Source of the DNA: Ulva prolifera
Taxonomy: Eukaryota > Chlorophyta > Ulvophyceae > Ulvales > Ulvaceae
Assembly (NCBI GenBank): GCA_023078555.1
Contig: CM041198.1
Coordinates: 3,209,354-3,273,353 of the forward strand
Reading direction: 5' to 3'
Length of the DNA: 64,000 nucleotides
The notes below the pieces were generated by a model. That model was not told the origin of the DNA, did no database searches, and was given only the letters and a program-made list of their open reading frames with translations. Of the stretch, positions 16,286-59,874 are shown one piece after another. The translations under genes were made by a program, and so were the position numbers. Numbering within the stretch: the stretch's first letter is position 1; the number at the start of each line of letters is the position of its first letter.

Positions 16286-19200
16286 TCAGACTGATTCAAT
16301 CTGAGAGATCTGCATTCCCAGCGCCTTTGCTCCAGCCTCCTGCTTCGGGCCTGGAAGCGCCTTGGTGAGGATGTCAGCCTTCATCTCCTCTGTCTTGACA
16401 AACACTGCTTCAATGTCTCCTTGCATCACACGGTGGCGGACAAAATGAAACGCAATGTCTATGTGCTTTGTCCTACCAGCTGCTCCTGGAGTATGCTGCT
16501 TCATCAAAACAAGGGCGGACTGGTTGTCCCCATACAGTCGAATACGCTGCATCTGCCCACTCAGCTCAGCCATGAGCTTGCGAACCCACAACACCTCCTT
16601 CACCGCTGCAGCTGCTGCCACATACTCAGCCTCACATGTTGAGCAAGCTACCACAGTCTGCAACTTGGATTTCCAGACCACAGGACCACCATGCATGAGT
16701 ACAACTGCACCTGAGGTGCTCTTTCTAGAGTCAGGCTCACCAGCGTAATCAGCATCTGTGTATGCCTCTACAGCGGGCATACCACGCTGATACACAATGC
16801 CCCTATCAAGCGTACTAGCAATGTACCGCAGCACACGCTTGGCAGCTTTCCAATGCACATCAGTTGCAGTTGCCACAAAACGACTCAGTACACCACATGC
16901 ATATGCAAGATCAGGCCGAGTGTTCACAGTCAGATACAGCAAGGACCCAACAAGCTCAGCGTATGGAGTCTCATCACCGAGAGGAGTGCCTTCATGTCGC
17001 CCCAGATGTGTGTTTGCCTCCAGCGGTGTGGTGACCGCTTTGCTGTCAGACATGCCGAAACGCTCCAGCACATCACGGGCATACTTCGGCTGACCCAACC
17101 AGATCTGCCCTAGCTCACGGTCCCTCCGAAGCTGCAGACCCAGGAAGTAGGTGACCTTCCCGATGTCCTTGATCTCAAAGGCGCCGGCGATTGCCGCCAA
17201 GGCTGCCTGAACCATCTGCTTCCTGCCGATGATTATACCGTCGTCCACGTAGATCAGAATGTAGACTCGCCGCTGCCCTTCACCTTTGTAGAACATGCAT
17301 GGGTCCGACTCCGATGCAGTGAATCCGAGACGGGTGAGCTCGCTCAGCAGCTTGGCGTGCCAGGCACGCGCAGCCTGCTTCAGCCCATACAGAGCTTTCC
17401 GCAGTCTGTATGTGCGGCCGCCGAATGCCTCCGGCATCCGAACGTACACCTCGTCGGTCGGGTCAAACTCCCCATTCAGGAAAGCTGTTGCCACATCAAA
17501 CTGATGCAGCTCAAAATCATGCTCCGCAGCGTGTGCGAGCATGACTCGAAATGTCGCTTGCTGAGCAGTGGGAGCAAAAACTTCTTCGAAGTCCATGCCC
17601 TTGCGCTGCAAGCACCCCAGCACTACCAGCCGGGTCTTGTACTTGTCAACTGCTCCAAACGCATCGCGCTTGATTTTGTAGACTGGTTTCATCGGCAGAA
17701 CCCTCTTTCCCATTGGTACTTCAGTCACGAGGTCCAGAACCCCCTTCTCAATGATGGATGTCCACTCTGCGTCCATGGATGCACGCCAGAGCTCCGCATC
17801 AGGTCGGCCAAGCGCCTCCGCAGTCGTCTTCGGTTCATCTGTCAGCCCGTCCGCAGCGTACGCATACGCATGGGGTTGAAATGCATCAGGTGCACGCCGC
17901 TCCCGTCTGGGGTACCTGTGTGCTGGTATCTCTTCTACGGGTGGCGCGCCCGCATCACCGTCATTGTCGGGGTCTTCACCACCATCGGCGTTGCCGTCAT
18001 CACCAGCATCACCACCACCATCGTCGCCAGCATCTTCATTGCCGTCATCACCAGCATCGTCGTCGGAGTCTTCACCGTCCGAGTCCTCGGCATCACTGGC
18101 AGCTTCCAGTGGTGGCATGTCCGCATACATGTCTGGCTCTCCAAGATTAGGAGCCATCAGGTCTTCACCGGTCTCTGAGCCCACCGGCTCTGCATCTGCG
18201 GGCATCATCTCGCAGTTCATTTCATACACACGCCCACGCTTCTGTCCTGTGAGGATGATGCCTCCTTTAGCGTCCATGATCTCACATCTGTCACCCTTCT
18301 GGGTGCACTCATGAGCTGCTTCAGTTGCCAGGAACCCTGATAGAAGGTTCACTGTCATGCTCGGTACCCATAGCACCGAACGCAGCAGCACCAGGCCCGC
18401 TGGGCCTCCATCCAGCCACACTTCTCCTTCTCCCATGACATCGTGGCACTCACCACCTCCCAGAACCACTCGCTTGGTGCTGCTAGGTCTCATGTCACGA
18501 ATCACATTGCGATTGTGTACAATGTGGTGAGAAGATCCGCTGTCGTAGAGCAGAGCATCAGTGCTTGCCCCGGCGGCCATTGCCATCCCCTCGGATGGAT
18601 GTGCAGCTTGTGCAACCATTGCTGCTGCCGGCCGCGGGCGATCCTCAGGCTTCACCTTCGGTTGCCGACAGTCCTTCTGGATGTGGCCTACCTTCCCGCA
18701 GTTGAAACATTTCCGCGTCTCTTTCCGCTTCTTCTGGCCCTCGGCGTTCATCGCCTTGCCATCTCTGTTCCCAGCACTCTGCTGAGAACTCTCCACGAGT
18801 CTGACGGCAGCCTTCAGCTCCTTCATGACCTGGTTGAAGCCTGCGCTCACATGCTGTGTAAGCATCATGACCAGGGACCCCCTCTCTGGAGCCTCCTTTA
18901 GTCCACGCACGAGCGCATTCGCGGCCAGCTGATCCGCTGCCGCGAAGTCGGTGTCTTGAAGCTTCTCAAGAACCTCAAGCACCCTCTCTGCATACCGCGT
19001 GTATGCCTCCGATGAGCCTTGCCGAATGTCATTCAGCTCGCTCACCAAGAGCGGTTGCCGAAGCTCCTGCTCGAGCTCCTGCTCGAGGCGGATCCGCCTC
19101 GTATTCAGCACGCACTTGCTGCCACGCCGCCATGGTGGTGGCTGCACGGTCAATGATGCGCGCCAGACCTCTGTCTTCAACGCAGAGCAGCATCCTGCTC

Positions 19201-19391
19201 CGGACCTTCGCGTCCGCCATCACTTCCTGTTGTGCAGCCATGTCTGGCTCCTCTGTGAGCCAGCCCTCCACTCCCATAGTAGTCAAGGATGCCCGGAACT
19301 GTGCAGCCCACAGCCGGTAGTCCCCACCCCGCTTCAGCTTGCGGACGGCATGGAGAGTGCTGCTTCGTTGATCTTCCATTACGCTTAACAC
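16286..19391 (-). pseudogene. Copia gag-pol remnant
   Basis: In transcript order it shows a gag-like region, the zinc knuckle CFNCGKVGHIQKDC, an aspartic protease motif LLYDSGSSHH, an unusually long Asp/Gly-rich linker, a reverse transcriptase with copia signatures (LYGLKQAARAWH and YVDDGIIIG), and an RNase H-like end (YADYAGEPDSRKSTSG-type and KHIDIAFHFVR). It is a fossil; the plus-strand open frames in this interval are its shadows. Confidence 0.85.
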
Positions 19392-56983: not shown

Positions 56984-58182
56984 ATGCGTCCGTTGACAGA
57001 GGAGGTGTGCGGCGTGCTGCACCATCCTGGCTGCACAGAACAAGCATCAACTTAGCAATCTCAACGCCTAGTGCATGCAGGAGCTGAAAACTGTTTTAGA
57101 AAAGCTTGTCAAGTTTATAGGGAAGAATGTGAAAACCTTGGTTGAGAGAGAGGACGAAGCGTATTGCTTTCGATTACACAAGAACCGAGTTTACTACGTC
57201 AGCGAACGGTTAATGAAGAAGGCAACAAATGTATGGCGTCAAGTGTGCGCAGGAATTTCACCTCTGTGCTGCCCAAGCGCCACTAACTCAAGGCGGCAAC
57301 GCTGCATGCAGGTGAGCCGTGAGAAGTTGGCATCTCTTGGTGTTCAAATAGGACGCTGGACGCACTCCGGCAAATTTAGATTAGGAATTGGTGCTCTAGA
57401 TATTCTGGCGCAGCATGCAAAGTACAAGGTACGCTTTTCGACCTGTGGTGGGCGTCAGGCATCTTGTGGCAACGCTGCCCATCTGCTAGCATAACCCAAA
57501 GCGTCCGCCCAGCTGCACCACTGCGTATCCTCAAAGGCTATTTGGGAGCCTCAGCTGTGCCTCACCGTCGGCCTGATGATGCGACTTTACTCTACCCAGA
57601 CTTCGTGATGGGATACTTTTCATCTTTCCACTGAGGGCCGACCTCACCTCGGTTGCATACAACAACCCATCAGCGCTTCACACCATCGTCTGATTACACC
57701 ACTGCGCTATGGCAAAAGCACAAACTAGGTTCCGCTGCTTGTAAGGCCATCGTTGCGTGCGTTGCAGCCAGTGCATTGCTATGTTGTGTTTTTGTTTGTG
57801 ACAGTCCGGATTTGTTGAGTTGGTGCTGTGTGTTACTTGTATACTGTGCCTGGTCCTCATAAATGGTGTCTGCGGAGCAGAACGCTCAGTGGGATGGTCT
57901 GGTATGTTACCGAGGCATCGTGGCATACAGGTCTGGCTGAAGTCCTCAGCCGAGATGTCCTTTCTGTATGGAAATCATGTTCTGAAGTCCGGGCTGGCAA
58001 AGATCACAGAGAACACGCCCACGAACGCAGGAGTGGTCATGTTCTCGATGTCGGACATCCCTCTGGGCTTTGGGGTCGCTGCAAAGAGCACAGCTGAGTG
58101 CCGAACTGCTGACCCCGGGATCATCGTCACTCTGCATCAAGGGGACATCGGAGAGTTCCTGAGGTCAGAAGAAGACTTGTAG
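56984..58182 (+). CDS. NIP7: 60S ribosome biogenesis factor NIP7
   Basis: Four exons (56984-57004, 57081-57230, 57312-57428, 57931-58182) join in phase to 179 aa, the family's usual 180. It starts MRPLTEE, continues with [20 protein letters not shown] (N-terminal domain) and [18 protein letters not shown], then the C-terminal PUA domain with [19 protein letters not shown] and [17 protein letters not shown]7 is conserved from yeast to human, binds pre-rRNA through its PUA domain, and acts in the nucleolus in 27S processing and 60S assembly. Three introns are 76, 81 and 502 nt. The 21-nt first exon is unusually small. The last 18 coding bases overlap the end of the opposite gene. Confidence 0.95.
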
Positions 58183-58992: not shown

Positions 58993-59874
58993 ATGGGTGA
59001 CAAGAGGCTCGATGTAGCGTCGGATAAATTTGATGCAGACGCATGTCTGTCCGTATCGGACCCGTCCACAGTCAGATTGCCGTTCCCTGAAGCCAAACAG
59101 CTACCCAATCTCTTTGCTACACAGACTCTCGTTCCCCCATCTGTAAGACAAGAAGTTGAAGCTTCCTTCGGGAAAACAGTACGCTGCGGTTCATCTGAGA
59201 CTCCATGCCATGAACACGTTACAAGGGCAACAGCAGTCTTGAACCAGTGTCACCGACTGACACATGATGTAAACCCACGCTGAGGGAGTTATGTCAGAGG
59301 ATGTATCCAGGAAAAAACTGAGGAGCAGAAACGGCAAGACAAGCAGAAGAAGGAGTTTGTGATCAAAAGAGCTGCAGAGTATATGCGAGATGTGCAGAAG
59401 GCGGCGACCGAGGATCCTGTCGAGACACTCGTCAAACGTGTCCGCAAAGGACCGCTCATGCTGCTGAAGCGATCATACGTTGCGAAATGTGAGATAGACA
59501 TTGTCACTAGACATGGCAGGGGCATCAGAGGGGTCATCAGGGCAACTCTGCATGGCTTCGATAAGTTCATGAATATGCTACTCGCCGATGCTCAAGAGCT
59601 ATTCGTAGTGAGGGTGAAAGTAGAGCGTATCCTGCATGATGCGCCGGAGGATGGCGGTGGGGTCAGAATGAGGACAGTGCATGACAAAGGCACACCGGTG
59701 GACGTTCCCAAAACCCGTACGGGCTGGAAGCAAGTCTTCCGACAGCGGAAACTGTCTCGCATCTTGCTGAGAGGAGACCAGGTGGTGACTGTGACATTTG
59801 CTGATGGCCCCCTGCGACTCCCTTCGTGCTTGAGCCATGTCCTGGTCCCAGAGCAGACAAAAGAGGCCCAGTGA
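58993..59874 (+). CDS. LSM11: U7 snRNP-specific Sm-like protein LSm11
   Basis: Two exons (58993-59178 and 59311-59874) join in phase 0 to 249 aa. The N-terminal KRLDVASDKFDADACL followed by LPFPEA parallels the human LSM11 RLDVSSDSFDPLLALY region, which in animals contacts FLASH. A basic, helical stretch follows. Sm1 lies at about 121-155: CEIDIVTRHGRGIRGVIRAT then HGFDKFMNMLLADAQE (human FDKFWNMALTDVDE). A spacer of about 50 residues separates it from a C-terminal Sm2, WKQVFRQRKLSRILLRGDQV (human YQQVFTRHINQIFIRGENV). The long gap between Sm1 and Sm2 and the N-terminal motif are specific to LSm11. LSm10/LSm11 replace SmD1/SmD2 in the U7 snRNP, which cleaves histone pre-mRNA 3' ends. It is shorter than human LSM11 (about 360 aa). 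Confidence 0.85.

Follow-up and report, generated by a model that had tools for sequence, protein, structure and literature searches.

A predicted LSm11 orthologue, hairpin-ended histone genes and SLBP in the green seaweed Ulva prolifera suggest a histone-trimming machine older than animals

A 64-kb stretch of the genome of the green seaweed Ulva prolifera (C3:3209354-3273353 of an 88.9-Mb assembly in 44 contigs, hereafter the window) contains a gene of two exons whose 249-amino-acid product is, judged by sequence comparison, very probably a green-algal orthologue of LSm11. LSm11 is known from the machine that trims histone mRNAs in animals. Together with the hairpin-ended histone genes and the SLBP encoded elsewhere in the same genome, the gene suggests that this machine is older than animals. 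The two-exon model and three LSm11 traits had been proposed in an initial annotation of the window, and all three traits are present: RLDVASDKFD at the N-terminus, FDKFMNM in Sm1 (residues 145-151) and WKQVFRQRKLSRILLRGDQVV in Sm2 (residues 201-221). The model is supported by the gap-free alignment across the exon junction of P0003 (source jgi/Ulvmu1/8753; 72% identical over 100% of the length, E=1.7e-111), a protein which we take, from the portal code Ulvmu1, to be that of Ulva mutabilis. The Pfam LSM match (38.9 bits, cut-off 23.4) covers residues 137-223 yet only 45 profile positions, corresponding to an Sm domain with a long spacer between its two halves. With NCBIfam nothing scored above the cut-off, the best model, below it, being that of an archaeal small nuclear ribonucleoprotein (snRNP).

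In a single-sequence search against solved structures, human LSm11 was the first match (E=7.6e-6), followed by SmD2 (0.018); the alignment to human LSm11 consists of three stretches in the correct order, namely the N-terminus, Sm1 and Sm2. A profile of 22 family sequences, run against the PDB, likewise placed LSm11 (1e-9) ahead of SmE (2.6e-6) and SmD2 (2.7e-5), which answers the question, raised by the initial annotation, of whether another Sm or LSm family would score better. Fifteen LSM matches were found genome-wide and labelled by eye from known family features: LSm1 to LSm8, SmD1, SmD2, SmE, SmF, SmG, one frame left without a label (L038) and the gene in the window. SmB, SmD3 and LSm10 were not among these 15 matches. 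In the reverse direction, the human LSm11 segment gave E=3e-4 for the gene in the window and 32 for the runner-up among these frames (on the E-value scale of the PDB set; the frames are single open frames, in which split genes such as SmD2 are only partly represented). LSm11 is thus the best match in both directions, as expected for the proposed orthologue. The predicted structure of the protein is an Sm fold. Among the 50 Foldseek matches listed, three human LSm11 chains had the top query template modelling score (0.42); ordered by E-value, LSm11 first appeared at rank 16 of these, after spliceosomal Sm chains.

Animal LSm11 has the N-terminal consensus RLDV.S..FD, and the human motif itself, RLDVSSDSFD, was observed at positions 23-32 of chain 8g1u_D (360 residues). 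Aligned without gaps to 43 residues of the human protein, the algal motif has a score that was matched or exceeded in 15 of 20,000 shuffled versions of exon 1. Protein searches yielded a family of 27 LSM-bearing relatives, a count that leaves out P0024 (an apparent chimera) and P0031 (a fragment without LSM). The N-terminal match, on which the initial annotation had built part of its case, is present in all six relatives that extend to the N-terminus: five carry [KR]LD[VL]xxExFD (P0003, P0009, P0010, P0011 and P0025), while P0030 has the looser LDFRSPAFD. The remaining 21 lack the motif, and most of them start at or after exon 2. Residues W201, Q203, R208, G217 and D218 are invariant across 22 aligned sequences, and the spacer between Sm1 and Sm2 is much longer in some relatives, e.g. 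P0025. P0004 is a fragment 98% identical to the window protein. No relatives were found in viral contigs. P0009 and P0030 bear a precomputed Pfam domain, PF28412, which was not reported by the Pfam copy used here and may describe the LSm11 N-terminus. The excluded P0024 is labelled as a UvrD helicase of an Akkermansiaceae metagenome-assembled genome and ends in the Sm2 half of an algal LSm11; it is probably an assembly chimera. In the human protein, the segment 23-130 binds a FLASH dimer, according to the available part of PMC5636114; since the human motif begins at position 23, it sits at the start of this segment. That FLASH is conserved as the partner, as the initial annotation suggested, runs ahead of these data. 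Residues 107-118 of human LSm11, a helix, contact CPSF73 (PMC12774660); the long helix predicted ahead of the algal Sm fold may correspond to it.

Two other origins of the gene were weighed. It might be a diverged SmD2 or another Sm/LSm paralogue with an unrelated role and a chance likeness to LSm11. SmD2 does share the Sm fold, a GP[LM] stretch ahead of Sm1 and FD...NM (yeast SmD2 chain); its Sm domain, however, lacks such a spacer, an RLDV extension is absent, and the genome holds a separate SmD2 frame (C4:6119381). With the N-terminus, Sm1 and Sm2 all matching LSm11 in order, and with the reciprocal best matches and profile values given above, this origin is very improbable. Animal LSm11 (human; PDB 6v4x_D, 9n96_D and 8g1u_D) shares with the algal protein the N-terminal RLDVxSDxFD, an Sm1 with GxRGV...FDKFxNM, an Sm2 with QVF and I..RG..V, and a spacer separating the two halves. 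The algal protein is shorter, with a spacer of about 40 residues compared to more than 100 in 8g1u_D, and has, by eye, no RG cluster resembling the human RGGGRGRGRARG (as given in the available text of PMC10578488). In the part of this 2023 paper on U7 snRNP assembly that was accessible, the particle is stated to exist in animal cells and not in plants or lower eukaryotes, which would fit contamination of the algal assembly with animal DNA or recent acquisition of the gene from an animal. Against this, the gene lies 3.27 Mb inside a 12.4-Mb contig, and the Ulva mutabilis protein matches over the full length at 72% identity, whereas human LSm11 matches in three short stretches only; an animal source is therefore extremely improbable. 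In contrast to the human protein, this LSm11 has an algal host, as the initial annotation had presumed, and no animal one, because the only close relative that bears a name (P0003) comes from Ulva.

All four core histone genes of the genome carry a hairpin of the GGTGTT-loop-AACACC type 31-53 bases after the stop codon (51 for H3, 53 for H2A, 34 for H2B and 31 for H4), that of H4 (C4:6109893) being a variant, GGTGTTTGTTCAACACCGCC. These hairpins are situated outside the window. Behind H3, H2A and H2B the hairpin is followed by ACCC[AT]CC, and the pattern GGTGTTN{4,6}AACACCACCC has three matches in the 88.9 Mb, which are those behind these three genes (0.14 expected from base composition; one match for the reversed pattern). 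A relaxed pattern without ACCC, TGGTGTTN{4,6}AACACC, was discarded as unspecific, with 14 matches, some of them on both strands of one site, compared to 18 for the reversed control. At the loci of the second H3, H2A.Z and CENH3 neither the ACCC-bearing nor the relaxed pattern was matched; in this they resemble animal replacement histones. The two H3 genes (L023 and L024) encode an identical first-exon protein from the start codon to DTNL, and the hairpin pattern is found at one of them only. With the animal histone hairpin (Rfam Histone3) the algal one shares a stem of six base pairs beginning with GG and ending with CC, the position soon after the stop codon and, in three of the four algal genes, the subsequent ACCC[AT]CC; it differs in the stem GGTGTT/AACACC and in a loop of 5-6 bases instead of the four of animals. 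As in animals, SLBP is encoded: its RNA-binding domain (C3:4215513-4215872) has two exons, which scored E=4.4e-13 and 2.1e-6 and lie in consecutive open frames, the first with DPHRIAQRMKQVEFGKNSAGYKAYVLAVPR and the second with DPQTPDVRTKCSKRCFDGLLRSWRRRLHRYDPP. Folding predictions place a second hairpin no more than 45 bases behind the histone hairpin (z-scores from 200 shuffles per gene: -2.46 for H3, -5.09 for H2B, -2.42 for H4 and -1.09, not significant, for H2A). No sequence is common to all four second hairpins, which may belong to the processing or termination machinery, may take the place of the U7-paired element, or may partly be due to chance.

From these likenesses, the LSm11 orthologue probably works in a U7-type particle, the RNA of which is still to be found. 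LSm11 would most likely occupy the place of SmD2 in a heptameric Sm ring assembled around a U7-like RNA, and its N-terminal extension would, with a presumed partner, help histone pre-mRNAs to recruit the cleavage module with CPSF73. SLBP would hold the histone hairpin, and cleavage directly past it would give a histone mRNA without poly(A).

Several results weigh against such a particle. LSm10 was not found in a six-frame genome search, a weak one, with the human or the coelacanth (P0115) query; the human query aligns by phmmer end to end to 6v4x_C with one residue different. The queries retrieved LSm4, SmD1, LSm2 and one chance-level match (E=9.6, two stops), and of the 15 LSM frames, LSm4 was the one that a vertebrate LSm10 profile matched best. 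In a protein search with human LSm10, the species-named rows among the best 120 of 449 matches were vertebrate. Genes can be missed by the LSM scan, since SmB and SmD3, which the spliceosome requires, also escaped it by our labels. Neither Rfam nor the Sm site of vertebrate U7, both weak searches, revealed a U7 RNA in the genome, and the 64-kb window gave no Rfam match at gathering scores. Rfam Histone3 (RF00032) had no match in the genome; reading this as absence of the hairpin was rejected after inspection of the histone 3' flanks. The hairpin-bearing core histone genes, unlike the replication-dependent ones of animals, appear to contain introns, because their reading frames are interrupted between conserved segments. 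Finally, no downstream element is common to the four histone 3' flanks, the best 5-mer occurring in three of them; the element that pairs with U7 is loose in animals too.

Candidates for the U7 RNA were rejected individually. The best match to Rfam U7 (RF00066; 23.7 bits, threshold 34) at C1:10974529-10974594 lies opposite a kinase-like frame (translation by eye), and at E <= 10 sub-threshold matches were likewise obtained in 12 of 14 prokaryote controls. Five AATTTGTCTAG sites, compared to ten of the reversed pattern, provided no convincing U7 Sm site. One of the five (L058) has CACGTG 129 bases upstream, similar to U2, but its downstream hairpin is weak. The 28-mers upstream of the five candidates pair ordinarily with the histone flanks (rank fractions 0.31 to 0.92 among up to 3,000 random 28-mers). 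In the three U2 small nuclear RNA (snRNA) genes L054, L055 and L056, CACGTGGC recurs at -85 to -87, and in two of them TTCATATCG stands immediately before the start; together they point to a probable snRNA promoter element of the alga.

The missing RNA could also mean that LSm11 and SLBP direct histone pre-mRNA cleavage without a U7 RNA, the second hairpin replacing the U7-paired element. The second hairpins of H3, H2B and H4 agree with this, as does the lack of a U7 candidate and of LSm10. Yet known eukaryotic Sm rings assemble on RNA, the second hairpin of H2A is not significant, the searches for U7 and LSm10 were weak, and the LSM scan missed SmB and SmD3 as well by our labels; cleavage without U7 RNA is considered rather unlikely. 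The genome search suggested by the initial annotation has accordingly produced SLBP and neither LSm10 nor U7 RNA, and its proposal of an ancient U7 snRNP outside animals stands as far as LSm11, histone hairpins and SLBP are concerned, the weak searches having returned neither of the other two components. We lean slightly towards the wider reading that green algae have a U7 snRNP with LSm11 and that U7-guided histone cleavage predates the divergence of the animal and green-plant lineages. The hairpin would then be an altered one, and a second hairpin may replace, or lie beside, the U7-paired element.

The features are compiled in Table 1. Upstream of the LSm11 gene, a UPF0113 PUA domain (2e-22) is encoded by an open frame at 57931-58167 (+) of the window, whose closest likeness is presumably the C-terminus of NIP7. 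A frame of 977 amino acids at 16286-19219 (-) encodes RVT_2, Pol_BBD and a zinc knuckle and is a copia-type retrotransposon polyprotein.

Table 1. Positions of the LSm11 gene, its parts and the second histone hairpins (window positions unless a locus is named; pLDDT, predicted local distance difference test)
Feature	Position	Strand	Remarks
LSm11 gene, two exons	58993-59874	+	249-amino-acid Sm-fold protein
LSm11 exon 1, residues 1-62	58993..59178	+	begins MGDKRLDV; start and end match P0003
N-terminal motif RLDVASDKFD, residues 5-14	59005..59034	+	alignment to human LSm11 RLDVSSDSFD
Predicted intron, 132 bases, GT..AG	59179..59310	+	P0003 crosses junction gap-free
LSm11 exon 2, residues 63-249 and stop	59311..59874	+	Pfam LSM match; structure model pLDDT 82.7
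Predicted long helix ahead of Sm fold, residues 66-96	59320..59412	+	structure model
Sm1 half (GPLMLLKR...GFDKFMNMLLADAQELFV)	59449..59607	+	Pfam, PDB comparison, family alignment
Sm2 half (WKQVFRQRKLSRILLRGDQVVTVTFA)	59725..59802	+	Pfam, PDB comparison, family profile
Predicted second hairpin, H3	L023, start ~3290		
Predicted second hairpin, H2B	L026, start ~2872	reverse	
Predicted second hairpin, H4	L053, start ~2074		
Predicted second hairpin, H2A	L029		not significant

Histone hairpins and SLBP have reportedly been traced to protists and algae in a 2008 paper on the early evolution of histone 3'-end processing. Volvox and Chlamydomonas are named as exceptions among plants for their histone mRNA hairpins in the available text of PMC6827988. 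The presence of histone hairpin and SLBP in algae is therefore not new in kind, and LSm11 in an alga is the surprising part, if unreported. Searches of the mostly open literature that combined algae or plants with LSm11 or U7 gave no paper reporting LSm11 in algae, judged by title, the first part of the abstract or, for PMC12898128, PMC6827988 and PMC3695525, text passages, which leaves priority unsettled. For the hairpin-bearing algae, the question of how histone pre-mRNAs are cleaved gains a named protein, LSm11, that can be tagged, and the age of U7 processing becomes directly testable in a cultivable seaweed.
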